Source: Pseudomonadota bacterium
Lineage (GTDB): Bacteria; Pseudomonadota; Alphaproteobacteria; UBA8366
Direction: 5' to 3'
NCBI GenBank assembly: GCA_036339585.1
Contig: JAYZAS010000025.1
Span: 1-53,948, forward strand
Length of the DNA stretch: 53,948 nt
Below, piece by piece: positions 6,064 to 21,389 of this stretch. Below the pieces are notes generated by a model, which made no database searches, had not been told where the DNA came from, and saw only the letters and a program-made list of their open reading frames with translations. Position 1 is the first letter of the stretch; every line of letters begins with the position of its first letter. Position numbers and translations under genes: made by a program.

Positions 6064-8874
6064 TCAGTCTTCCTCACCCAATTCGTTGTGCTGATTGTTT
6101 TCTTGTTTGTTAACACCCACCGGCCCCTCGGCTGTTTCTTTACCACTATTCATGGTATCTTCGGGATTTTCTTCAGGGTCACCCACATCACTAAGCCTCG
6201 CCACTGATACTACTTTTTCATCATCATCAACCTTAAAAACCGATACCCCTTGAGAACCGCGCCCCTTAATCCCAACATCATTAAGCGGGCACCTAATCAG
6301 TTTACCTCCATCAGTCACCAACATTATTTGGTCTTTATCCTCAACTGAGAATGCAGCAACAATCTTAGCCGCAGTGCCTTTACCAATATCCATGTTAGTC
6401 ACGCCTTTTCCACCACGCTTTGCTGGCCTATATTCATAAGCTGAACTTAGCTGACCACGACCATCATTAGAGATAGACAGGATGAATTCCTCCTCCTCGA
6501 GCATTTTCTGAAATCCCTCATTTTCCAAAGCTTTTGCTCGCTCTTGATCCCTTTCCAAATCCTCCTGTTTCCATGCCTCTTTATCGCGCGTTTCCAGCCT
6601 TCGACGAGCTCGAGAGGCTTGTATAAAAACCTCTCTTTGTTCGGCGCTGGTGTCTGTGTGCTGCAAAACAGACATCCAAATTACCTGGTCGTTATCACCG
6701 AGATTTATGCCGCGCACCCCCGTTGAAGTTCGCCCGCTGAAAACACGAACATCAGGTACGGGGAACCGAATACAAATCCCATTTTGCGTGGATAACATAA
6801 TATCCTTGCTTTCATCACATACCCGCGCATTAACAAGACCATCACCATCAGCAAGTTTCATGGCAATTTTTCCGTTAGCTTTAATGTTGGTAAAATCAGA
6901 AAGTTTATTTCGCCGAACATTACCTTTCGATGTCGCAAACATAATCTGCGAGCCATCCCAAGTCGTCTCGTCCTCAGGCAATGGCATAACTGTGGAAATT
7001 ACTTCACCGTCCTTGAGCGGCAAAAGATTAACCATGGCTTTGCCGCGCGCTTGCGGCCCCCCCAGCGGCAACTTGTACACCTTCATTTCAAAGACCATTC
7101 CACGCGATGTAAAGAATAGGACTGGCGTGTGAGTAGATGTAACGAAGACCCTGCTAACAAAATCACCCTCTCGAGTGCTCATGCCAGCGCGCCCCTTGCC
7201 CCCTCGTCGCTGCGCACGATATGTCGAAAGTGGCACGCGTTTGATATATCCACCATGGGTAACAGTCACGACCATATCTTCGCGCTGGATTAAATCTTCG
7301 ATATCGTGTTCAAATTCTACATCGCTGATTTCGGTCCTTCGCTCATCAGCATAAGCATCTTTCATCTCGACTAATTCTGCACGCATTACCTCGAGGAGCA
7401 AAGATCTTGACCCTAAAATTCCCAAATACTTGTTGATTTGAGAAGCCAAATCTTCGGTTTCTCCAATCAATTTATCGCGTTCCATCCCAGTGAGACGTTG
7501 CAAACGTAACTCCAAAATTGCTCGTGCTTGCTCTTCGGAGAATTGATACTTCCCGCCCACAACGGCGTGGCCCGGGTCGTCTATTATTTTTATAAAATCT
7601 TCAACATCGGACGCAGGCCAAGGTGTAGCCATCAAATTTTCCCTCGCCTCCACAGGGTCTTTTGCCTTTCGTATAAGATCAATAACAGGATCAAGATTGC
7701 TAATTGCAACTAAAAGCCCTGCCAAAATATGCGCCCTTTCTCGAGCTTTACTCAACTCATAAATAGTGCGTCTTGTAATTACCTCCTCACGAAACGCAAG
7801 AAAAGCGTCTATGACTTGTTTAATGTTGAGCATCTCTGGCCTGCCGCCATTTAACGCCAACATGTTCACGCCGAAACTTGTTTGGAGTGGGGTAAACCTA
7901 TATAGCTGAGCAAGCACAACTTCTGTCATGGCATCGCGCTTGAGCTCTATGACAACCCGAACCCCTTCGCGGTCAGATTCATCACGGAGGTCTGAAATGC
8001 CCTCCACCGTTTTGTCGCGAACTACCTCTGCAATCCGCTCTAGCATCCGAGATTTATTAACCTGAAAAGGAATTTCAGTAACGACAATTGCCTCTCGATC
8101 TTTGCTTGCCACTTCCGTATGGGTCTTTGCTCGCATTACAACAGAGCCCCGCCCAGTATGAAAAGCAGAATGAATGCCCGTTCGGCCCAGGATTATCCCC
8201 CCGGTTGGGAAGTCTGGCCCTGGAACAATTGTTATCAGGTCGGCAATACTAATTTCGGGATTTTCAATGGTCGCCACACAAGCGTCTATCACCTCACCTA
8301 AATTATGGGGCGGTATATTTGTTGCCATTCCAACAGCAATGCCGCCGGCACCGTTAACCAACATGTTAGGAAAGCGCGCCGGCAAAACAGATGGCTCCTC
8401 AGTTGAGTCATCATAATTAGACTGGAAATCAACTGTGTCCTTGTCAATATCATCCAATAGCGATTCTGCTGCTTTAGCAAGCCGCGCTTCGGTGTACCGC
8501 ATTGCTGCCGGCGGATCGCCATCCATCGATCCAAAATTACCTTGGCCGTCGATTAACTGAAGGCGCATAGAGAAGTCCTGCGCCATTCTTACCATGGCAT
8601 CGTATATGGCTTGATCTCCATGGGGATGATATTTACCCATGACATCACCAACAATCCGAGCAGATTTACGGAACGGTTTAGAAGAGTCGTACCCGTTTTC
8701 TTTCATCGCATAAAGAATTCGCCTATGCACAGGCTTGAGACCATCTCTTACATCAGGCAGTGCACGGCTAACGATTACGCTCATTGCATAATCGAGGTAA
8801 GAGTTACGCATCTCTTCCTCAATCGTAACCTGCATATAAGTACCAGGATTGACGTTTTGCGGCGGTTGGCTCAC
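6064..8874 (-). CDS. gyrA: DNA gyrase subunit A
   Basis: A 936-residue GyrA, the cleavage-religation subunit of gyrase, which introduces negative supercoils. The active-site tyrosine is Y127 in AAMRYTEA. The quinolone-determining region reads [13 protein letters not shown]: Asp92 corresponds to E. coli Asp87, but the position of E. coli Ser83 is Gln88. A charged, coiled-coil-like insert (about residues 730-780) interrupts the C-terminal beta-pinwheel domain. I regard such inserts as typical of alphaproteobacterial GyrA. The last 40 residues are acidic. A 281-base gap separates the start from the HAD-like gene of the mys block. Confidence 0.98.
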
Positions 8875-9155
8875 ATCATGCCTTCTTATAATTAATTAAC
8901 GACTGAATTACCGTTAAAGACGAGTTGCACGCTATGGCACTCAGCTATTGTTTTCCGCTATTTATTAACACTCGCAAGACATCCCTACAAGCGGTGTAAA
9001 GTTAATATTTATTATTATATAACAATAGCTTATATGTGAAAAAATCGACAAATATGCAATGGTGTGCGAAGATCGGTCATATGATTCGCTTATGCCCGAT
9101 TAACAGAACCGCCACGAAAGTTTCGGACCGGAACTACCATTTGGTAAAATATGAA
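8875..9155. other. Intergenic region upstream of gyrA, downstream of mys block
   Basis: This is 281 bases without a gene. It should hold the gyrA promoter and any terminator for the mys block. The part at about 9000-9050 is very A/T rich. I see no strong hairpin followed by a T run, so termination of the mys transcript is not explained by an obvious intrinsic terminator. Confidence 0.4.
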
Positions 9156-9875
9156 TTAGGTTGTGGCGGAAGCGCCGCAAAATCCTAAATCATTTTGATC
9201 AATGTGAAAATTCTTAAGGCTCGTTAAAACACAAGCAGAACTGGCATAGTTCTGTGATTTCTTGTACTCACCTGGAACGACTAGACACTTAAGGCCGGCC
9301 TTTTCCGCAGAATAAAAGCCACTCTCACTGTCCTCTATTGCAACCGACAAGTGTCTGGGGACCTGCGTTTTTTCTATGGAGTTTAGATAAATTTCCGGGT
9401 CCGGCTTAGACTTAATACAATCATTTTCACTAGTGATCAGATCAAATAGGTTAAAATCTAATTTTCCCTGTAAGGAATTGCTGATCGCATTTATATTTCG
9501 CTGTGACGTAGATGTGATCCAGCATAACATAATTCTATTTTTTGAACATGTGGTCATTAGTTCTGCAACACCCTCACGGGGGAACAAAACCTTCGACTGC
9601 AGTAGTTCTTCAAAAAATTGAGTTTTAAGTACGTGTAAGGCTTTGATACTTTCCTCGTCTAAATTGGTATTACACGACTCGGCGTATCTTTTTAAACGAT
9701 CTTGCCCTCCTGCCTTTACCAGCATTTCCTGGTATTCCTTCAACTCCCAGTTCCATGAAAGACCGTATTCTTTAAATGCTGAGTTGAACGCAAGAAGTTG
9801 CAATTCCGATGTTTCAACAAGTGTTCCTATTGATCCTAAATAGATACACCTTACTTCGCCAAAGGTAATTCGCAT
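9156..9875 (-). CDS. HAD-superfamily (CbbY-like) protein lacking motif I aspartates
   Basis: A 239-residue protein with the layout of a HAD phosphatase of the CbbY/beta-phosphoglucomutase group: helical cap after motif I, then motifs II-IV. Motif I, normally DxDGTL, reads LGSIGTLV (about residues 13-20), so both the nucleophile Asp and the acid/base Asp are missing. Motif II (ITSTSQ, about 120-125), motif III (KSKPDPE, about 155-161) and motif IV (IEDSESG, about 180-186) are intact. I have an unverified impression that similar GSIGTL proteins exist in other alphaproteobacteria. It lies 177 bases downstream of mysD in the same direction, so it may be a last operon member or have its own promoter. 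A role in sugar-phosphate handling for the sunscreen pathway is only inference. Confidence 0.7.
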   Translation of the reverse strand: MRITFGEVRCIYLGSIGTLVETSELQLLAFNSAFKEYGLSWNWELKEYQEMLVKAGGQDRLKRYAESCNTNLDEESIKALHVLKTQFFEELLQSKVLFPREGVAELMTTCSKNRIMLCWITSTSQRNINAISNSLQGKLDFNLFDLITSENDCIKSKPDPEIYLNSIEKTQVPRHLSVAIEDSESGFYSAEKAGLKCLVVPGEYKKSQNYASSACVLTSLKNFHIDQNDLGFCGASATT

Positions 9876-10052
9876 ATTTGCACCTTGTTAAAAGAAAATT
9901 TCAGCCCCTTAGAATATTTATAACGGTTTGTAAGATTTAGACAGGATATGAATTTACCGTCGCCTATACTGAAGATTAGTTTGCATATCATTAGCGGTAA
10001 ACCCTAAAAAACATTATGGGTGTCCATGATATCGAGTGCCATTCGAACAATT

Positions 10053-11066
10053 CTAGTGCTCGCTTACAAAATCTCTACATTCCCAGACGTCTTTGATAAT
10101 AGAGGGGATGTCCATACTGCCAGCTCGCAGCATTTTTGTGATCATTGCGGCGTTACTGAAAGACCAAAATAATCCTGCTTCCAAAAAAATCGGCCTGTTT
10201 GACCCGTGTTCTATCCGAAAATCAAAAAGAGAGTAATGCCTGGCGCCTAGTGCTTTATGAGCCCTTAGCGCTTGAGATCGAATTTCCTCGTACAAATCAC
10301 AATCAATATCAGCTGGGCAAACCATCTTGACCGGTGTTGATAGCGCTTGGTCTTGCGGTTTTCCCCTTGTATCAATTTTTAATTTATCAGAAATAGTTCG
10401 AATAGGGTTCTGAGGAGTAACTAGATATTCGATAATGGGGGGGATAAGATAACCCTCGGAGGTTTCTAATACAGCAACCCTAATCTCACGCCCGTTTATG
10501 TATTTTTCTGCAAGGACAGAACTATCTGATGCCTCAGCCAATTCGATTGCACGTTGTAATTCATTTGGCCGGGTGACCATTGTTAAACCAACGGAATTAT
10601 CCTGCTTATTGGGCTTTATTATTATCGGAAAAGAGAGTAATTGAACATCGATCTCCGACGTTAGCCCACCATCGGCTATATTCACCCCATTTTGGACCAC
10701 ACACTTGCGTGTGCGATTTTTATCCGCGGCTAGCGCCATCACAGAACCCGGCGAACCAATCATTTTAAAAGATAATTTTTTTTCAAAAAAATCTCTGCAC
10801 GCTGTCATCCCTTCATAACAAAACAGGTGGGGGACTATGAGTGAACCTTTGTGCAGGTTATTTATTATTTCTTTTGATGCTTTTGCATCGGACAATTGAG
10901 ATAAAGAGTGTCCGATGCGCCAACTACCGTTAGGCTCAATTACAATAAAATCCTCCTTCCATCCTTTTGGTAGGATTGTGTTCTTTGCATAGATAAGTGA
11001 CAATTCGTGGAAGAATTCAGACGTTGGCGAACCACAAACATGGTAAACGTGCTTATTATCGGCCAA
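10053..11066 (-). CDS. mysD: D-Ala-D-Ala ligase-like MAA synthase MysD
   Basis: MysD attaches a second amino acid (serine, threonine or another) to mycosporine-glycine, giving a disubstituted mycosporine-like amino acid such as shinorine. The 337-residue ATP-grasp protein follows cyanobacterial MysD along its length as I remember it. It has an N-terminal HVCGSPTSEFFHELS segment, a central PIIIKPNKQDNSVGL ATP-grasp segment, EKYINGREIRVAV, and the late ALGARHYSLFDFRIE and IFLEAGLFWSFS segments. It starts 2 bases after mysC stops. The choice of amino acid cannot be read by eye. A peptidoglycan D-Ala-D-Ala ligase is the alternative, but the three genes upstream make MysD far more likely. Confidence 0.9.
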   Translation of the reverse strand: MADNKHVYHVCGSPTSEFFHELSLIYAKNTILPKGWKEDFIVIEPNGSWRIGHSLSQLSDAKASKEIINNLHKGSLIVPHLFCYEGMTACRDFFEKKLSFKMIGSPGSVMALAADKNRTRKCVVQNGVNIADGGLTSEIDVQLLSFPIIIKPNKQDNSVGLTMVTRPNELQRAIELAEASDSSVLAEKYINGREIRVAVLETSEGYLIPPIIEYLVTPQNPIRTISDKLKIDTRGKPQDQALSTPVKMVCPADIDCDLYEEIRSQALRAHKALGARHYSLFDFRIEHGSNRPIFLEAGLFWSFSNAAMITKMLRAGSMDIPSIIKDVWECRDFVSEH

Positions 11067-11068
11067 AA

Positions 11069-12403
11069 TTAATCTCCACCAGGCTCGACGAGTTTACCGA
11101 TATTAAAATCAATCCTTAACCACTTGTTACCGGTAAATACCGCTTTTAATAACAGCAATGGAATCTGCCAATGATAAACCATCAAAAATGGAAGTGGGTC
11201 ATGCATATCAAAAATTGCTTCTTTCCCCAGTGCAACGAGTTTAGTTTTTTCAATAAGCTTAGCGGCGGAAAATGCTGAAAATAGCTCGAACAATTCATGA
11301 TAAATCCAATAAGTCTCGCGCGCATCTTCTCTCGGTGTGATAGGATCATACTTCACCAAAGATGATGGCTTTACATAAGTGTCCGCAAGCCGTGTCGAAT
11401 TATAAAAAGTAGTGACAGCTGAGTGTGTGCGCGGATTACACTCAATAGGCATAATCTCGCCCCTATTATTTTCAATAAAATCAAACGAAATCTGGCCCGT
11501 AAGACTTAATTTTTTTGCAAAGGAACTAATCCAATCAAAAATTTTTCTATGATCAATATGCTTATACCGAAGCTGAAAATCCGATGATAGACAACAACAG
11601 TGCAGCAATACTTTACCTTTGTGCACCAAAGAATGTGTGCAGTATTCCGTGCCCTCTATAAATTCTTGTAATACCCAAGAATTTTTTTCTGAAAAACTTA
11701 ATCTACTAAAATACTCTGATTGGTCGGGAAACGGTATGAGCGGCCTGTCAAGTCTATTGAGAGGATCATATGAAAGATTCTTAAGAATAAATTTCTTTTT
11801 CGACTGTTTTAAATTAATGCGATCTAAATCTTTACGGTTTGCAATTCTATGCACTTCGGGCGCAGTTAATCCTAATTCTGAGGCTATTTCACACAAACGA
11901 TGTTTATCATCGAGTACTTTCAGAACCTCCATATCAAAGTGGAGAAATTGGCATTGTCCTTTCAATGCTTTTTTAACATCAGAGTCAAAATATACAACCT
12001 TTGGACTGGCAACAGGAATCACAAGGTCTATTTTTTCATCCGTTACGATTTTACGAATTGCACTGAGGTAGGACCTGAGACCTTCTTTTAAATCAGGAAG
12101 CAGTACAAATTTATGTATGCACGCTGAAAATGCGTGCCCTGAACAACTAAATTTTGCTACTTCGGAAAGATAAACTTTATGGCCTGATCTGTGTAGTAGC
12201 CTAGCTAGCTGTAATGCCTTTGTCATCTTGCCACCGGTAAGGAGGATGTTCTGACTATCTGTTCTTTGCATTACAGCGTTCCGCAAAAACAAGCGCATCA
12301 AGTTGGCAATACAAAAAATAATAAAACTTAGGGGGGCAAGACCCGTTAAAACCAGAAAGTACAAAATGCCGTGCAGGCGACCACGTATTTTAGCCTTCAT
12401 CAT
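11069..12403 (-). CDS. mysC: ATP-grasp mycosporine-glycine synthase MysC
   Basis: MysC is the ATP-grasp ligase that joins glycine to 4-deoxygadusol to give mycosporine-glycine. The 444-residue protein has a hydrophobic N-terminal segment (about residues 12-38), as cyanobacterial MysC does, suggesting membrane association. It is followed by the hallmark LLTGGKMTKALQLAR, the IPVASP segment, FHFDMEVLKVLDDKH, QEFIEGTEYCTHS and TGQISFDFIE...ECNPRTHSA. The last segment supplies metal and ATP ligands. It lies 8 bases after mysB and 2 bases before mysD, so the operon is tight. The match is strong enough that I consider the identity secure, although activity depends on the unusual MysA upstream. Confidence 0.92.
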   Translation of the reverse strand: MMKAKIRGRLHGILYFLVLTGLAPLSFIIFCIANLMRLFLRNAVMQRTDSQNILLTGGKMTKALQLARLLHRSGHKVYLSEVAKFSCSGHAFSACIHKFVLLPDLKEGLRSYLSAIRKIVTDEKIDLVIPVASPKVVYFDSDVKKALKGQCQFLHFDMEVLKVLDDKHRLCEIASELGLTAPEVHRIANRKDLDRINLKQSKKKFILKNLSYDPLNRLDRPLIPFPDQSEYFSRLSFSEKNSWVLQEFIEGTEYCTHSLVHKGKVLLHCCCLSSDFQLRYKHIDHRKIFDWISSFAKKLSLTGQISFDFIENNRGEIMPIECNPRTHSAVTTFYNSTRLADTYVKPSSLVKYDPITPREDARETYWIYHELFELFSAFSAAKLIEKTKLVALGKEAIFDMHDPLPFLMVYHWQIPLLLLKAVFTGNKWLRIDFNIGKLVEPGGD

Positions 12404-12411
12404 TTATGCTT

Positions 12412-13236
12412 TTATTTTACGCGCTCGGAAACGGTAACGCCGTCACGAAGTGGAATTATTACCTGTTCCATTTGTTTTTCATTATTTAGGTATTGATTAA
12501 ACAAATTTATGGCTTGACCGGCTTCGGATCTGTCAGAGCTATCCAAGTATGCTTCTCCTTGAAGAAGGGTATTGTCGACCACACACAGACCACCAATGCG
12601 CAGAAGATTGTTTTTTAGAATATATTGCACATAGTTTGTATAATTTTGCTTGTCGGCATCAACAAAAACAAAATCAAACGTCAAATTTTGTTTTGATATT
12701 TTTTTCAAGGTATCCATAGCTGGCCCGATTATTATTTTTATTTTTTTCTTCAAACCAGCAGAAAGGATACTTTTCTCTGCGATGGCAGCAGCTTCAGCAT
12801 CTATTTCACAAGCTATTAACTCGCCATCATCGGGCAGCCCCCTTGCCATGGAAATTGCCGAGTAACCAGTAAACATGCCTATTTCCAAAATCTTTTTTGA
12901 TTTAGTTGCCGAAACAAGTGTTTTGAGGAATTGTCCTTCAACATGCCCCGATAACATTTCAGCTTCCAAAAAGACATCAACTTTTTCTCGATCAGCTTCC
13001 CAGTCAAATTCACGGGTTTCTTGCGAAAGAGATGCCAAATATGCGGGCTCACTAGTGGTATTTTCTTCGAGATACTTATCCAGGCCGGAAGCTAAAAGGT
13101 AGACGCGGTTTAGTTCTTTTTGGAAAATGTCGCTTGTTTCCTTTAATGAAGGATCATTCCTAAGTTGTTTCAGTTTTTCAGTCAAAATGGAATGTGGTGT
13201 TATCGGCCTAAGCGTTTTCATCTGTAAACCTATCAT
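12412..13236 (-). CDS. mysB: O-methyltransferase MysB (4-deoxygadusol synthase)
   Basis: MysB methylates the cyclase product to 4-deoxygadusol using SAM. The 274-residue class I methyltransferase belongs to the CCoAOMT-like group. The SAM motif is LEIGMFTGYSAISMARG, followed by the acidic end of strand 2 (IACEID) and the metal/substrate segment VDADKQNY. It shares features that I remember from cyanobacterial MysB rather than from general O-methyltransferases. These are an early RPITPHSIL, VVDNTLLQGEAYL, and a C-terminal EQVIIPLRDGVTV. The ATG directly follows the mysA stop (TAA-ATG); a second Met five codons later is possible. Confidence 0.93.
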   Translation of the reverse strand: MIGLQMKTLRPITPHSILTEKLKQLRNDPSLKETSDIFQKELNRVYLLASGLDKYLEENTTSEPAYLASLSQETREFDWEADREKVDVFLEAEMLSGHVEGQFLKTLVSATKSKKILEIGMFTGYSAISMARGLPDDGELIACEIDAEAAAIAEKSILSAGLKKKIKIIIGPAMDTLKKISKQNLTFDFVFVDADKQNYTNYVQYILKNNLLRIGGLCVVDNTLLQGEAYLDSSDRSEAGQAINLFNQYLNNEKQMEQVIIPLRDGVTVSERVK

Positions 13237-14991
13237 TTATTCAGCAGCAAAAGCAGATCGTAGAGGAACATGCACAGTAGAGGGGTCTTCCAAACCAACA
13301 TCACTGCAAAGCGGTTCAACGCCAATACCTTTACGTTCAAGGCTTTGGCAAAAAGAATGATAGTCGGAAATAGAACTTTTCAGTTCTTCACGCCCAAGAT
13401 CATTGATGTATCCACAATTACCAATTCGGTGCTTGGGAACAGGCGCGGCGAGATTACCTCCGCGTTTTTCTATAATACGTTCCTGAGATTCCCAAATTAA
13501 TGATTCTTCTAATAAAATGTCGTGCCAAAGACTCAACTCAAAATTTTCTATCAATTTAATAATTCGAAGGAAAGTTTCGTCATCTATCCAATCCTTTTTT
13601 CTACTCAAGAAAGCACCAAATCCCATTCCTATTGAGACTGCGTGCCCATGCAGTAAGCCGGCTTTTATTTCAAAACCGGGCGACCAAGTATGGCCATACG
13701 CATGAGGGCGGCATTGATGTGTTTCATATAAATTCTCGTATTCTGCAGAAACATAGCTCCGCATAGCACCGGCCAAAATTTTGTTCGACTTTGCTACTAT
13801 ATCTTTTGTTTTAATATTGTCCTGTTCAATACCAAATCTTGACTTGAACAAATCTGCACCAACCTCTTCGAGATCACAAAACAGTTCGGCATCTTTTACA
13901 ACACCCATTTTAATCATTTCAGCCACGCCGTGTCTAAGCCAACCAATTTTAAGAGTCTTAAAAAACGAACGATCTGTTATCGTTAGGATTGGTGTATGAT
14001 AGGAGCCAAGTAGATTTTTGTATCCATATCCATCACAGCAAGTCCGAGGTGACGGTCCAGCGTCTATAGCAGAGACGATTGACGATCCAACCATGATATA
14101 GGGTGTGTTGCGATGATAAAGAGCGCACGCCAGACCACCTATATCCGCTAAAACGCCACCTCCAATGATGAGTATGGGCTCATTCCTTGAAACGCCCAGC
14201 AACTTAAAATCACCTAAGATTTTTTCAACAGTGTTAAGCGCTTTATCAATCTCCATCGCTCGGTAGACTAATTTTTCTAGATCCGTTGAATAATGTTTAA
14301 AGTAGTTCTCAATGTCTTTTCCAAAATGCTTGTCTACATTTTCGTCTACAAGACAAATACAACGTTCAAGCGGTCGGTAGATATCGCTTAAGGTGGTATT
14401 ATACAAATCCAGTATATTTTCTTCGATACGTATAGAGGTGTAGGTATGGCATGACATAACTGCCTCAAATGCATAATCATCAGAGCCAGTTGTTACTGAG
14501 CCACGGCTTTCTCGATACGGTGATGTCGGATATAAGGCGTGCGGATTGTTATTTACAAGTTCTTGTTCGTAATTTTTAAAATAGGCATTAAAAGGTCCTT
14601 CCGATAAGACCTTTGATAAACGAATTTTACCTGCACAATTATCTAAAAGTTCATCTCTGAAACCCGTTATGCCCTCTGAAGCATTAGGCGCAATAATCTT
14701 GCTGAGTTCCGCCAAATCAGAAAACACAAATTTCAGAGGCTGGGAATAACATGCCCTAAGGCGACGAATGATAGGTATAGCCTTGATATCATCTGAAGAA
14801 GCAAGTTCATTCATTAAATCCGGTGAGTCAATCACAGTGTTGGTGAACCATACCACTAACTCTTTAAATACGTCTGATGACCCTAATTTACTCACGGTGT
14901 CAGCAGTTGACACTCCATCTAAGACGATTTGTTCAAGTTCAATAAGCTTGGGTAAGACATCTAATTGTACAGTCATAAACTTGCATCTCAT
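13237..14991 (-). CDS. mysA: Sedoheptulose-7-phosphate cyclase MysA (DDGS-like), N-terminally extended
   Basis: This member of the 3-dehydroquinate-synthase-like sugar phosphate cyclases would turn sedoheptulose 7-phosphate into 2-demethyl-4-deoxygadusol, the first mycosporine step. From the ATG at 14991 it has 584 residues. Residues about 170-584 align with cyanobacterial DDGS. They include the NAD motif IIGGGVLADIGG (about 275-286), probable zinc ligands E358 (GVAEMIK), H434 (YGHTWSP) and H448 (LLHGHAV), and a C-terminal GNCGYINDLGREEL segment. Residues 1-170 are extra, mostly helical and unrecognised. In the loop where DHQS/DDGS have (I/G)KxxVN, it reads SPRTCCDG: Lys is Arg316 and Asn is Asp320. 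The frame opens to 15228, but that part has odd composition. The ATG at 14991 overlaps the stop of a leader ORF with a strong ribosome-binding site; Met at 14976 is an alternative. Product identity rests mainly on mysBCD. Confidence 0.88.
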   Translation of the reverse strand: MRCKFMTVQLDVLPKLIELEQIVLDGVSTADTVSKLGSSDVFKELVVWFTNTVIDSPDLMNELASSDDIKAIPIIRRLRACYSQPLKFVFSDLAELSKIIAPNASEGITGFRDELLDNCAGKIRLSKVLSEGPFNAYFKNYEQELVNNNPHALYPTSPYRESRGSVTTGSDDYAFEAVMSCHTYTSIRIEENILDLYNTTLSDIYRPLERCICLVDENVDKHFGKDIENYFKHYSTDLEKLVYRAMEIDKALNTVEKILGDFKLLGVSRNEPILIIGGGVLADIGGLACALYHRNTPYIMVGSSIVSAIDAGPSPRTCCDGYGYKNLLGSYHTPILTITDRSFFKTLKIGWLRHGVAEMIKMGVVKDAELFCDLEEVGADLFKSRFGIEQDNIKTKDIVAKSNKILAGAMRSYVSAEYENLYETHQCRPHAYGHTWSPGFEIKAGLLHGHAVSIGMGFGAFLSRKKDWIDDETFLRIIKLIENFELSLWHDILLEESLIWESQERIIEKRGGNLAAPVPKHRIGNCGYINDLGREELKSSISDYHSFCQSLERKGIGVEPLCSDVGLEDPSTVHVPLRSAFAAE

Positions 14992-15017
14992 AAAAATGTT
15001 GTTGTCAAAACTATCAT
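14988..15017 (-). CDS. Nine-residue leader ORF overlapping mysA start
   Basis: An AAAGGAGAG ribosome-binding element (15029-15021 on the minus strand) sits five bases, counted from AAGGAG, before an ATG at 15017. That ATG opens a short frame encoding MIVLTTTFL. Its TGA stop overlaps the mysA ATG at 14991 as ATGA. The strong ribosome-binding site therefore belongs to the short ORF, and mysA itself has no good one. This is the usual geometry for translational coupling. Alternatively the ribosome-binding site could serve mysA directly at long range, or a small indel may have separated it from the gene. Confidence 0.45.
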   Translation of the reverse strand: MIVLTTTFL

Positions 15018-15536
15018 TTGCTCTCCTTTGCTTAAAATTTCCATGAGGCAATTCGGCGCGGGTAATTCTCCAACAGTTTACTAACAATGTAATTGTAGGA
15101 AGCGCGTCGTGCGGGGCGGCCCTTTCTGGTGATGTACTTGTTTCCGATGTTCCGCGACCCACAACGCGGGCGCAACCAAGTTTCCGGGCTACGGCTTCCG
15201 GTTTCTGATTGCAGGGAAGCTCTCGCAATAGCGAAAGTGTTGTTCTTTAATCTTTACCTTTTTACCTGTAAAGAGAAAGTTTACCCCTAAAGAGTAAGCT
15301 CAGAGAGGGTTTTCCGCTCTTTTGTCGCGGGAGAAACTATCGATGTTGTCCCCAAGGATAGTTTTTTGGGGACAAAACTCTTGGCTATCATTTCAAAGAT
15401 AGCTGTAATAGCCAAACAGCAGTTTTTAGTGAGATATTACCTAAAGGTTATTAGCTTTTAACGTTTTTAAAAGCTTGCTCGCCGAAATCCAGAGATTTGT
15501 AAAATTAGGACAAAGTTACCTGCTCCAAAGATATAC
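15018..15536. promoter_or_regulatory. Structured intergenic region between ssb and mysA
   Basis: About 520 bases separate the ssb stop from the leader ORF. Part one (about 15035-15228) is visibly richer in G/C than the mys genes and is open in two minus-strand frames, one of them joined to mysA. Part two (15240-15480) is dense in repeats. TTTACC occurs at 15253, 15261 and 15280. The 15-mer starting TTTACC and ending TAAAGAG occurs twice, 19 bases apart (15261 and 15280). A perfect 10-bp inverted repeat TTGTCCCCAA/TTGGGGACAA lies at 15346-15375. Overlapping it is AAACTATC/GATAGTTT (15334-15364). TTGGCTAT/ATAGCCAA lies at 15381-15415 and AGCTTTTAA/TTAAAAGCT at 15453-15475. The mys promoter should lie here. 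The type of regulator is unknown. Confidence 0.45.
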
Positions 15537-15995
15537 TTAAAACGGAATTTCATCATCTAGGTCACTGCTACCGGCCGGTGCGGGGCCAGAATCCTCCGGC
15601 GGTGAGTAATTCTGAGAAATTTCCTGACCAGCACTTCCTCCGGCGCGAGAGTCTAGCATTGTGAGCTGTCCTCTAAATTTGCGAAGAACTACTTCGGTTG
15701 TATATTTTTCTTGGCCTGATTGGTCTGTCCATTTTCGGGTCTGAAGCTCGCCTTCAAGAAAGACCTTTGCCCCTTTCTGCAAATACCGTTCCGCAACATC
15801 GACCAGCCGATCATCAAAAACGACCACTCTATGCCATTCTGTCCGTTCTTGCTGCTCACCACTATTACGGTCTTTCCAACGCTCGGAAGTAGCTATCGAC
15901 AAATTACAAACCTTTCCGCCGTTCTGCATTGTACGGACCTCCGGTTCACGACCTAAATTTCCTACCAGTATTACTTTGTTGACGCTTCCGGACAT
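15537..15995 (-). CDS. ssb: Single-stranded DNA-binding protein
   Basis: A 152-residue SSB, which coats single-stranded DNA in replication, recombination and repair. The OB-fold region begins [21 protein letters not shown] and runs to about residue 110. A short Gly/Ser/Pro-rich linker follows, and the protein ends in the canonical acidic tip DDEIPF, which recruits partner proteins. It diverges from uvrA across 197 bases, an arrangement I associate with many alphaproteobacteria. I looked for a GTTC-N7-GTTC LexA box in the shared promoter region and did not find a convincing one. Confidence 0.98.
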
Positions 15996-16192: not shown

Positions 16193-19051
16193 ATGGCCGA
16201 CTCGATTAGCATACGTGGCGCCCGCGAACATAACCTTAAGAATTTCGACATAGATTTACCACGTGATCGACTGATCGTCATCACGGGCCTGTCCGGATCC
16301 GGCAAGTCCTCTTTAGCCTTTGATACAATCTATGCGGAAGGTCAGCGCCGCTACGTGGAGAGCCTATCTGCTTATGCTCGCCAATTTCTTGAAATGATGC
16401 AAAAACCTGATGTGGACTCTATCGAAGGCCTTTCACCCGCAATATCAATTGAGCAGAAAACGACCAGCCGTAATCCTCGCTCTACCGTTGGTACGGTGAC
16501 TGAAATTTATGATTATCTTCGCCTGCTATTTGCAAGAGTAGGAACACCTTTTTCCCCTGAAACAGGACTGCCAATCGAGAGCCAAACAGTGACCCAAATG
16601 GTAGACAAAATTTCAGCATTTAAAAAAGGCAGCCGGCTGTATTTGTTATCGCCTATCGTAAGAGGAAGAAAGGGAGAATACCGTCGGGAATTAAAGGATT
16701 TACAAAAACGCGGTTTTCAAAGGGTCAAAATTGACGGCGAAATCTATGAACTCGATGATACCCCGGCGCTTGATAAAAAGCGCAAGCATGACATAGAGGT
16801 GGTTGTTGATCGAGTGGTCTTGCGTGATGCTCTTCAAGAGCGTCTTGCTGACTCAATCGAAACAGCACTGGAACTGTCGGATGGGTTGGCTATTGCTGAA
16901 GATGCAGACAGTGGTGAACGCAGTATATTTTCAGCGCGTTTCGCATGCCCCGTTTCTGGTTTCACAATAGATGAAATAGAACCACGACTATTTTCCTTCA
17001 ATAATCCCTTCGGCGCATGCCCCACCTGTGATGGGCTCGGAACTAGAATGACTTTCGACCCAGAACTTACTGTGCCTGACACCTCCAAGAGCCTTCGGGA
17101 CGGGGCGATCGCACCGTGGTCAAATTCCTCTTCGCCCTACTATCAACAGACCCTCAAAAGTTTAGCGCGCCATTTTGGCGTACAAATGAGCACACCATTC
17201 GGGGAACTGCCAGATGAAGTAAGAAGTGCTATTCTTTTCGGTACCGGCGACGTTTCGATTACGCTGGAGTATGACGATGGCCTTCGAAACTATAAGACCA
17301 ATAAACCTTTTGAAGGCGTTATCCCCAATATGGCCCGTCGTTGGCGTGAAACAGATTCGAATTGGATAAGGGAAGAGCTTGAACGCTACCAGACTAAAAA
17401 CCCTTGTGAGACATGCAAGGGAGCACGCCTCAAACCTGAGGCTCTAGCAGTAAAAATTGCCGGCCTCCATATCAGTGAAGTATGTACAAAGTCGATTGGC
17501 CAAGCCGTAGAGTGGTTTCAAGTATTGGAAAACTCTTTAAACACTAATCAACGGAAAATCGCCGAGCGTATTCTCAAAGAAATTCGTGAGAGGCTCGGCT
17601 TCCTTGCTAATGTCGGACTTGAATATCTTTCACTTGAAAGGTCTTCCGGCACGCTTTCTGGGGGTGAGAGTCAGCGTATTCGCCTCGCATCTCAAATAGG
17701 ATCCGGCCTAGTCGGTGTACTATATGTTCTTGATGAGCCATCAATCGGTCTTCACCCACGTGATAACCAGAGGTTACTTGAAACCCTGCGGCGCCTTCGG
17801 GACTTAGGGAATACCGTAATCGTGGTAGAGCATGACGAAGAAGCTATGTGTGCTGCCGACATGTTAGTCGACCTTGGTCCAGGTGCCGGGCGTCACGGTG
17901 GAAGCCTCGTTTCCGCCGGAACACCTCAGGAGGTGATGGCATGCTCAAACAGTGTGACAGGTCAGTATTTGTGTGGAGAACGTCAGATCGCCGTACCTCA
18001 AAAGCGACGGAATACCAGATCAACACCGAAACTCCAAATAAATGGGGCCTCGGCAAACAATCTAAGGAATTTGTGTGCGGAGGTGCCTCTTGGAACCTTG
18101 ACGTGCGTGACTGGGGTATCCGGAAGTGGAAAGTCGACATTTACAGTTGAAACTTTATACCGAGCATTGGCACGACATTTAAATAACTCTCGGGTCATTC
18201 CAGGCACCTACGAGAGTATCAAAGGTTTGGAATACTTGGACAAGATTATAGAAATTGATCAGTCACCAATAGGACGAACGCCTCGTTCTAACCCAGCAAC
18301 CTATACAGGTGCATTCACACCAATACGAGAATGGTATGCAAACTTACCTGAGGCAAAAGCAAGAGGATATGCTCCAGGGCGTTTCTCATTCAACGTTAAA
18401 GGCGGTCGATGCGAAGCCTGTCAGGGTGATGGAGTAATAAAAATTGAAATGCATTTTTTGCCAGATGTATATGTCGAGTGCGATGTTTGTGAGGGTAAAC
18501 GCTACAATCGAGAGACATTAGAGGTGCAGTTTAAGAATAAATCTGTCGCTGACGTTCTCGCCATGACGGTAGAGGAAGGCGCAGAGTTTTTCAGCGCTGT
18601 TCCTTCAATACGAGATAAATTGGCGACCCTTAACCGCGTTGGGCTTGGTTATGTGCAAATCGGCCAGCAAGCAACAACACTTTCCGGTGGTGAGGCGCAG
18701 CGAGTGAAACTTGCGAAAGAACTCGCGAAACGGGCCACCGGCCGTACTCTCTACGTACTAGATGAACCTACCACTGGCCTTCATTTTGAGGATATCCGAA
18801 AGTTACTTGAGGTACTGCACGCGATAGTCGACACGGGTAACACAGTTGTGGTTATCGAACATAACCTCGATGTAATCAAAACAGCCGATCATATCATAGA
18901 CCTTGGACCAGAGGGTGGAGACAATGGTGGAAAATTAGTTGCAAGCGGAACACCGGAAGAGATTGCTAAAGTAAAAAAAAGCTATACAGGTATGTATTTG
19001 AAAACAATTTTACGAAAACAAAAGGAAATTCCACAAAGGAAAAATATTTAA
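16193..19051 (+). CDS. uvrA: UvrABC excinuclease ATPase subunit A
   Basis: UvrA is the damage-recognition ATPase of nucleotide excision repair and loads UvrB. The 952-residue protein has two ABC modules. The first Walker A is [10 protein letters not shown] near residue 32 and the second [10 protein letters not shown] near residue 640. The ABC signatures are [10 protein letters not shown] and [10 protein letters not shown]. Zinc-finger cysteines are seen in CPVSGF...CPTCDG and in RCEACQGDG...ECDVCEGKR. Length and order are typical. It is the repair gene nearest to the sunscreen operon, but this placement probably reflects ancestral ssb-uvrA linkage rather than a UV regulon. Confidence 0.99.
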
Positions 19052-20534: not shown

Positions 20535-21389
20535 CTACTGCCATTTCCTGCTCCATACCTTGAGTGCAAGGCGCGCCTCGTGAAACGGAATGGGTAACGT
20601 AACAGCATAAACATATGGATCGTAATTGACCCGCTTGAGACGCATCAGATACCAGCGTGCCTGCGCAGCCGACAACACCGCAGGATATGCCGAACGTGAT
20701 AACTTAATCCCAGCCACCTCATCCAAGCGTAGGAACGCCATTTCTCCGAGCCTGGCGATGATCTTTGATAATTCCGAAGATGGCCTGAGTGAGAGCAAGG
20801 CGCGTTCACTCAGGCCCGCCTCATTCATCAAATCTACGGGCAAAAAATTTCTGTTCTGTTTAAAAAAGTATGGTGCTGCTCTCAACAAACCTGCCATACC
20901 ATAACTAACAGATGCCGCACTGACCGCGAGCGCATTTTTTTCATCTTCTGGCACCTCAAGGACCTTCAATGCCAAACGGTTTAAAGGCGTAACGGTCTTA
21001 TCGATATAACCACATAACTCTTCCACGTTTGCAAAAGGCTCATTTTTAAGGTCATTCATCCTACCCATAATCAGGGTCTGTAATTCCTTTCTTTCTAAAC
21101 CCCAAGTCTCCTTGGCGTTTGCCAGCGCTTGAAGAACCTGATGCTGTCTTGGCGTTCCTGTGAAAATTTCCTCAATGGCATCTGACCACCATTGCAATCT
21201 GATCTCGCCCAGCATTGGTTCAGATACAGTTTCTCGGATTTTAGCAATTTCGTGATTAAAAGCGTGAATCGCCCAAAGTGCAGAACGTCTCTCAACCGGC
21301 GCAAAAAGACTCACAACGTACGCGTCATGTGCCACACGCCGGACAAGGTCACGACAATAGACATCGTTGTCATTCCAATCCATTAACAT
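20535..21389 (-). CDS. Squalene/phytoene synthase-fold protein, NDUFAF6-like
   Basis: The 284-residue protein has the all-helical isoprenoid synthase fold. Visible segments include ALWAIHAFNHEIAKIRE, LQWWSDAIEEIF and FLPVDLMNEAG. The aspartate-rich DxxxD motifs needed for prenyl transfer are not clear: the first region reads NHEIAKIRE and ETVSEP. It therefore resembles the NDUFAF6 branch, a respiratory complex I assembly factor in mitochondria, more than a carotenoid enzyme. The Mth938-like gene at 22904-23278, a homologue of assembly factor NDUFAF3, is on the same strand but separated by an inverted MmgE/PrpD gene. A Met two codons in (21383) is an alternative start. Confidence 0.8.
   Translation of the reverse strand: MLMDWNDNDVYCRDLVRRVAHDAYVVSLFAPVERRSALWAIHAFNHEIAKIRETVSEPMLGEIRLQWWSDAIEEIFTGTPRQHQVLQALANAKETWGLERKELQTLIMGRMNDLKNEPFANVEELCGYIDKTVTPLNRLALKVLEVPEDEKNALAVSAASVSYGMAGLLRAAPYFFKQNRNFLPVDLMNEAGLSERALLSLRPSSELSKIIARLGEMAFLRLDEVAGIKLSRSAYPAVLSAAQARWYLMRLKRVNYDPYVYAVTLPIPFHEARLALKVWSRKWQ

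Follow-up and report, generated by a model that had tools for sequence, protein, structure and literature searches.

How does a marine alphaproteobacterium come to hold an operon for mycosporine-like amino acids (MAA), and why does a fifth gene, for a HAD protein, stand at its end? The operon lies on contig JAYZAS010000025.1 of a 2.79-Mb genome (assembly GCA_036339585.1, lineage UBA8366; G000 below), and the window analyzed here is this entire contig of 53,948 nucleotides. An earlier note, made from the sequence alone, had placed four contiguous minus-strand genes, mysA, mysB, mysC and mysD, in the interval 9156-15017 and had read them as a complete MAA operon. The list of open reading frames (ORFs) agreed with the contiguity: the four genes fill 10053-14976 on the minus strand, separated by 0, 8 and 2 bases. 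The count had to be raised to five, because the interval also contains a HAD gene at 9156-9875 that the note had not described.

The mys genes and their island

Profile searches, which had been proposed as a check, matched each product to the family expected of it, i.e. cyclase, O-methyltransferase, ATP-grasp enzyme and Ddl-like ligase. The mysA gene (13237-14976, minus strand like the rest of the cluster) encodes a long-form sugar-phosphate cyclase of 579 amino acids with the N- and C-terminal domains of DHQ synthase (Pfam PF01761/PF24621). The mysB product (12412-13236), an O-methyltransferase, matched Methyltransf_3 (PF01596) at 1.3e-51, and the scores of the MysB profile were bimodal, at least 325 bits or at most 192 bits. 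For mysC (11069-12403), an ATP-grasp enzyme with a hydrophobic N-terminus, the match to NF005315/PRK06849 reached 388.7 bits, under the curated cut-off of 406. The product of mysD (10053-11066, TTG start) is D-Ala-D-Ala-ligase-like and matched Dala_Dala_lig_C (PF07478) at 1.2e-21. A plasmid of Nostoc sp. HK-01 (AP018319) has a comparable cluster of cyclase, O-methyltransferase and ATP-grasp-type genes with a Ddl-like gene downstream, encoding proteins 37% (MysA), 46% (MysB), 43% (MysC) and 34% (MysD) identical to those of the window; one additional gene stands between its third and its Ddl-like gene.

Phylogenies set both the cyclase and the ligase apart from their counterparts in primary metabolism, so that the tree placement named in the earlier note as refuting the operon did not arise. 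MysA fell outside the DHQS (AroB) clade and outside the EEVS rows. In a MysD tree of 25 rows, drawn without L163 (read in a wrong frame), without L176 and without three rows that were duplicate or surplus, 14 MysD rows were parted from 11 Ddl rows by a branch with 100/100 support. The cluster thus joins a DDGS-kin cyclase outside DHQS to an adjoining MysB-type O-methyltransferase and to MysC and MysD. Families, trees and gene order bear out the claim that this alphaproteobacterium has a mysABCD operon of MAA type. On these sequence grounds we count the operon among the mysABCD kind; we do not claim a place for its cyclase in the DDGS subfamily proper.

The five genes make up a 6.4-kb island (9127-15524) between gyrA (6064-8874, minus) and ssb (15537-15995, minus). 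In G002, a genome of the same genus, the homologues of gyrA and ssb are neighbours, with 416 bp in place of the island. In a blastn comparison of the window with this locus (L144), the matches break off at 9126 and start again at 15525 (L144 10344 and 10760), and the flanks are 84-88% identical. The GC content of the island is 0.401 compared with 0.456 elsewhere, and lies below that of all 349 overlapping flank windows of the same size (minimum 0.434). An empty site in G002 combined with a low-GC island fits horizontal acquisition, most simply in the ancestor of G000 and the congener G001; the island may alternatively have been lost from G002. In G001 the five genes lie beside ssb and uvrA on one contig (right flank 93% identical), which speaks against a binning artefact.

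The distribution of the genes was also examined. Of 385 genomes of the class, 2 had MysB, one of them being the genome of the window. Four other genomes of the family were examined over 20 kb at ssb and gyrA and yielded neither mysA nor mysD nor the HAD gene, and in phage and plasmid records nothing matched over 80% of the query. The order mysA-mysB-mysC-mysD-HAD recurs in Rhodospirillaceae SP154 (L034), Methylococcaceae TMED69 (L025) and proteobacterium AG-365-F14 (L032). Their cyclases form one clade with those of the window and its congener (100/99), and the five proteins have diverged to 40-64% identity. Since the SP154-like genome is related to that of the window only at the level of class, this likeness points to transfer. 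Taken as a whole, the cluster is likely to be a horizontally acquired MAA operon.

A long-form cyclase with a changed active-site motif

Among PDB sequences MysA matched 5tpr, the Anabaena DDGS, best (237 bits, vs 155 bits for 4p53, the EEVS ValA). The cyclase tree held 56 of 87 rows, the other 31 having been dropped in advance, as near-duplicates or to spare time. Three of seven DHQS loci entered it, those of the window's genome and of G002 not among them. The window's MysA belonged to a clade of long-form cyclases (100/99), sister to a group of short cyanobacterial cyclases with the motif PSPRTC (99/98), most of which adjoin mysB and mysC. The two clades together (100/99) were sister to DDGS, with the EEVS and DHQS rows outside; these rows form long branches, and their mutual order is unsure.

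The active-site motif PSPRTCCDG (14029-14055, minus) is invariant in the long-form cyclases: all 24 aligned rows carry DAGPSPRTCCDG, whereas the corresponding stretch of the DDGS rows reads VAIKVAVNH or VSIKVAVNH. MysA accordingly lacks the active-site residues of characterised DDGS, and its short sister cyclases share PSPRTC with it. Two other motifs, GHTWSP and HGHAV, are common to MysA and the DDGS rows, unlike the two EEVS rows.

The long form owes its length to an N-terminal addition of about 195 residues (14392-14976, minus), made up of a helical domain and a conserved NPHAxYPTSxYR that precedes the cyclase domain; 5tpr matches only the part of MysA that follows this addition. AlphaFold modelled the N-terminal piece with a mean pLDDT of 82.1 and block means of 87-96 for residues 11-140, predicting a confident helical domain. 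This part of MysA had no Pfam match and no Foldseek match in the PDB at E<=0.001. VIA-align gave a best Z of 3.6, to common helical folds, which does not imply a new fold.

The enzymes of the established MAA pathway suggest, by homology, what the operon may do. MysA would convert sedoheptulose 7-phosphate (S7P) into desmethyl-4-deoxygadusol, which MysB would methylate to 4-deoxygadusol. MysC would then add glycine to give mycosporine-glycine, and MysD a second amino acid to give a disubstituted MAA absorbing near 330 nm. A disubstituted mycosporine had been proposed as the product from the start. The MAA type of the operon stands; the exact product we infer, because the cyclase belongs to a sister clade outside DDGS proper and has a changed active-site motif.

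Long cyclases also occur in a second setting. At 42 of 80 genome-scan loci the gene beside the long cyclase fell into one protein cluster; two of its members, when scanned, matched DUF6492. These loci were mostly cyanobacterial, with four further records of Pelagibacteraceae or Candidatus Pelagibacter (SAR11). In L071 (7881-10603), L074 (7962-10672), L075 (7890-10600) and L079 (7911-10621), and in cyanobacterial loci such as L049 (7866-10786), the DUF6492-type gene lies directly downstream of the cyclase. True MysB was present in 4 of 29 such genomes (those of L033, L036, L041 and L056); L036, at 7896-10749, is the pair of Oscillatoria sp. CS-180. The two-gene unit probably makes a different, unrecognised cyclitol product. 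MysG and MysJ have been reported as MAA glycosyltransferases, in a paper that gave no match for DUF6492 (PMC11378024).

How firmly, then, should the cluster be read as an acquired MAA operon? It could be argued that duplicated primary-metabolism genes (aroB, an O-methyltransferase, an ATP-grasp gene and ddl) have become adjacent by chance, each of them belonging to a large superfamily. We give this practically no weight: the cyclase and MysD trees separate the genes from the primary-metabolism families, other phyla have similar clusters, and the genome possesses another DHQ-synthase gene (contig C2) and a Ddl (contig C21). Three observations do weigh against our reading. The left junction in G001 is unlike that of the window; the cyclase does not fall within the DDGS clade, with R replacing the Lys of GxKTxVN; and long-form relatives adjoin the DUF6492-family gene, 25 of the 29 such genomes tested being without MysB. 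The last two, with the N-terminal domain and the position of the clade as sister to DDGS, would suit a cyclase that makes another cyclitol, such as 2-epi-5-epi-valiolone, in an operon whose product is not a classical MAA. This is improbable in view of the MAA-type MysB, MysC and MysD that are all present, the short PSPRTC sister clade mostly found beside cyanobacterial mysB and mysC, and the GHTWSP and HGHAV motifs shared with DDGS and not with the two EEVS rows. Past the HAD gene, the G001 contig (L023 1-693) shows neither gyrA nor clear similarity to the window; one ORF in this stretch resembles, by eye, a Sel1-repeat protein.

A HAD protein without catalytic aspartates

The fifth gene of the cluster (9156-9875, minus) encodes a CbbY-like HAD protein, as judged from profiles, alignment, a tree and an AlphaFold model. 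CbbY, a xylulose-1,5-bisphosphate phosphatase (4uar, 4uat), was its nearest match by sequence (118 bits), and the model (pLDDT 92.8) was closest in fold to 4uar (TM 0.78/0.83). The protein is thus predicted to have a CbbY-type fold with HAD core and cap, and it shares with CbbY the motif II Ser/Thr, the motif III Lys and the ED of motif IV. Motif I, by contrast, reads GSIG instead of DxDG (9825-9836, minus). In 27 of 27 homologues, near relatives such as those of the window and G001 included, the catalytic residues D8, D10, E17 and H20 of CbbY are replaced by G, I, S and Q, respectively. We take D8 to be the nucleophile and D10 the acid/base, in line with established knowledge of HAD enzymes. 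All 11 CbbY-type rows keep both aspartates of motif I. The 27 homologues and the 11 DxD rows lay on opposite sides of a branch with 100/99 support, five rows having been left out of tree and count (four duplicate loci under other ids and one partial match of 38.9 bits).

Since the nucleophile and the acid/base Asp of motif I are replaced in every homologue, we do not file the protein as a phosphatase. It looks like a pseudo-phosphatase, resembling a sugar phosphatase in sequence and lacking residues needed for that activity. Other features of CbbY have been retained. The 27 homologues retain, at the 90% level, 19 of the 63 positions that are conserved to that degree in the CbbY-type rows, including W37, Y42, G50, G51, R54, K78, R94, K151, E175 and D176. 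The 44 lost positions comprise the four uniformly replaced ones and 40 variable ones, K52 and K150 among them.

The HAD gene tends to occur where MysB occurs. Among 50 genomes picked through their cyclase loci, 17 had both MysB and HAD, 7 MysB only, 1 HAD only and 25 neither (Fisher p 6e-7, relatedness ignored), with true MysB scoring at least 325 bits (next 192) and HAD at least 226 bits (next 189). The sole genome with HAD only is a metagenome-assembled genome whose contig ends at mysC. By record title, HAD was present in 15 of 15 non-cyanobacterial MysB genomes vs 2 of 9 cyanobacterial ones. In 194 unselected cyanobacteria, HAD accompanied MysB in 1 of 21 cases, with 225 bits, the motif GSIG and a distance of about 330 kb from its mysB. 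A survey of 299 Pseudomonadota yielded 10 matches to the HAD profile at E<=1e-56: that of the window, three of GxI type in genomes without MysB, and six of DxD type.

The HAD gene is retained across phyla despite shuffled gene order (A-B-C-D-HAD, A-HAD-B-C-D, B-C-D-A-HAD, B-C-D-HAD-H-A and others). We considered, and rejected, the possibility that it is tied to the long cyclase: the 25 long-cyclase genomes without MysB lack it, and a further actinobacterial cluster has it together with a short, canonical-motif MysA. A partnership with MysH only was rejected as well. In 22 HAD-bearing stretches, HAD adjoins mysH (TauD-type) in 7 and mysD in others, and 13 of the 22, the window among them, show no mysH, some of these stretches ending at contig ends. 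Two further arrangements were observed. In an alphaproteobacterium without MysB (L131 8545-14915), the neighbours of HAD are a MysH-like TauD gene, an RND pump and a DUF2461 gene. Oscillatoria sp. CS-180 has the order HAD-mysH-mysB-mysC-mysD, with mysA not in that stretch (L134 3735-8786).

What might such a protein do in an MAA pathway? We favour the reading that it is an accessory protein without hydrolytic activity. It would bind some phosphorylated compound of the pathway, in the first place S7P or a bound phospho-intermediate, and in this way help the cyclase or ligase step. Within the MAA reading we hold this role tentatively, at a little under an even chance. The four uniform replacements at the catalytic centre, alongside the persistence of R54, K78, R94, K151, E175 and D176, favour it. 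The titles of PDB entries 4uat and 4uau describe the CbbY D10N mutant solved with bound substrate, so that a protein of this kind may lose an Asp and still bind. The pairing of HAD with mysD in Halomonas, and with a MysH-like gene in a MysB-less genome, speaks against a role confined to MysA. Whether non-cyanobacterial MAA clusters in general use a disarmed CbbY-like protein as a metabolite chaperone, holding or delivering S7P or a phospho-intermediate, is more doubtful, and we regard it as rather unlikely.

Several findings count against binding as in CbbY or against a firm tie to MAA synthesis. Only 19 of the 63 CbbY-conserved positions are kept, with K52 and K150 varying, and the 44 losses slightly lower the odds for the binding role. 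The ratio of nonsynonymous to synonymous substitution rates (dN/dS) between G000 and G001 is 0.43 for HAD, looser than the 0.09-0.17 of the mys genes. HAD is present in three alphaproteobacterial genomes without MysB, a Halomonas genome pairs it with mysD away from mysA, and it is missing from most MysB-positive cyanobacteria tested, which makes it neither essential for nor confined to MAA synthesis. The high dN/dS and the absent nucleophile would be expected of a decaying passenger gene. Decay is nonetheless very improbable, as the same four substitutions occur in 27 of 27 homologues from several phyla, 19 other positions are kept at 90% or more in both HAD groups, and the gene persists in clusters of differing order. 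A possible, though not a probable, alternative is that the protein is an enzyme catalysing a new reaction, other than that of a phosphatase, on an MAA or its precursor, tailoring it together with MysH or MysD. The 7 of 22 stretches with HAD next to mysH, the others with mysD, and the MysB-less genome with its MysH-like TauD neighbour agree with such an enzyme, as does the close co-location of HAD and TauD described in the main text of a preprint (PMC11888242). The 13 of 22 stretches without mysH, the window included, speak against it, and no catalytic residue is obvious, the uniformly replaced positions being G, I, S and Q.

Gene starts, neighbours and meaning for MAA synthesis

The start of mysA was set from the congener. 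In its frame Met is encoded at 14991 and again at 14976, the second being where the alignment with G001 begins. The ATG at 15017, where the earlier note had let the operon begin, is out of the mysA frame and opens a 9-codon leader ORF (14988-15017, minus) with a Shine-Dalgarno-like AAAGGAGAG. In the congener an ORF of 8 codons has the same position and a different sequence; translational coupling of leader and mysA is possible. The mysB start is perhaps 13221 rather than 13236, because the alignment with G001 begins past the first Met. The four mys genes contain no internal stops, and their proteins are 93-95% identical in G001, a metagenome-assembled genome with some N. Synonymous divergence between G000 and G001 was 0.445 for mysA and 0.14-0.18 for mysB, mysC, mysD and HAD; the excess in mysA over its neighbours suggests recombination inside the operon.

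Within the island, to which the search was confined, neither mysE nor mysH was found, in agreement with the earlier note. The LexA-type repeat of alphaproteobacteria, GTTC-N7-GTTC, occurs a single time in the window, inside mysD (10396-10410), close to the chance mean of 1.45. SOS control of the operon was rejected, and there is no case for UV induction via LexA. Promoter-like sites were at chance level (19 vs 18.2 expected). Beyond ssb lies the divergent uvrA (16193-19051, plus), and the same contig carries a gene of the squalene/phytoene synthase family at 20535-21389.

The cluster joins a wider set. The GATOR-GC preprint of 2025 lists, in its main text, 208 MAA windows from several phyla including Pseudomonadota, and describes HAD and TauD genes as conserved companions of MAA clusters in Actinomycetota, Pseudomonadota and Bacillota, the role of HAD being unvalidated (PMC11888242). 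It cites earlier mining that had found a few exceptions in one proteobacterial class, and unpublished work in which shinorine, palythine and palythine-serine were obtained from a Rhodococcus fascians operon that includes HAD and TauD. An MAA operon in Pseudomonadota and the HAD association are thus already known, which weakens the earlier note's impression that an alphaproteobacterial example would be novel. The loss of catalytic residues is new relative to that main text, which does not mention nucleophile, catalytic, pseudoenzyme or aspart-, and to the open-licence papers found. Two differences from the preprint's text emerged: it places HAD outside Cyanobacteriota, whereas three cyanobacterial genomes here have it, and the island, unlike its HAD/TauD clusters, has no TauD gene.

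Compared with cyanobacterial mysABCD, the window is set apart by the HAD gene and by a long-form MysA with PSPRTCCDG. Other variants were seen in cyanobacteria. In L063 (9771-13136) and L065 (9898-13312), long mysA, mysB and mysC are joined by an extra gene, in both from a single protein cluster; the L063 member was scanned and is a Methyltransf_2-type O-methyltransferase. The Crocosphaera records L096, L097, L101 and L103 have a membrane protein of about 470 amino acids between mysC and mysD that, from its sequence, looks like a sodium-solute symporter.

Cluster records were titled Alpha-, Beta- and Gammaproteobacteria, Bacteroidota, Planctomycetota and Actinomycetota, and sunscreen synthesis would accordingly be a mobile trait of heterotrophic bacteria and not mainly one of phototrophs. 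The divergent cyclase clade with its extra domain may be a resource for work on MAA production. The conserved HAD gene, finally, poses a testable question: why these bacteria would retain a phosphatase that appears unable to act as one.

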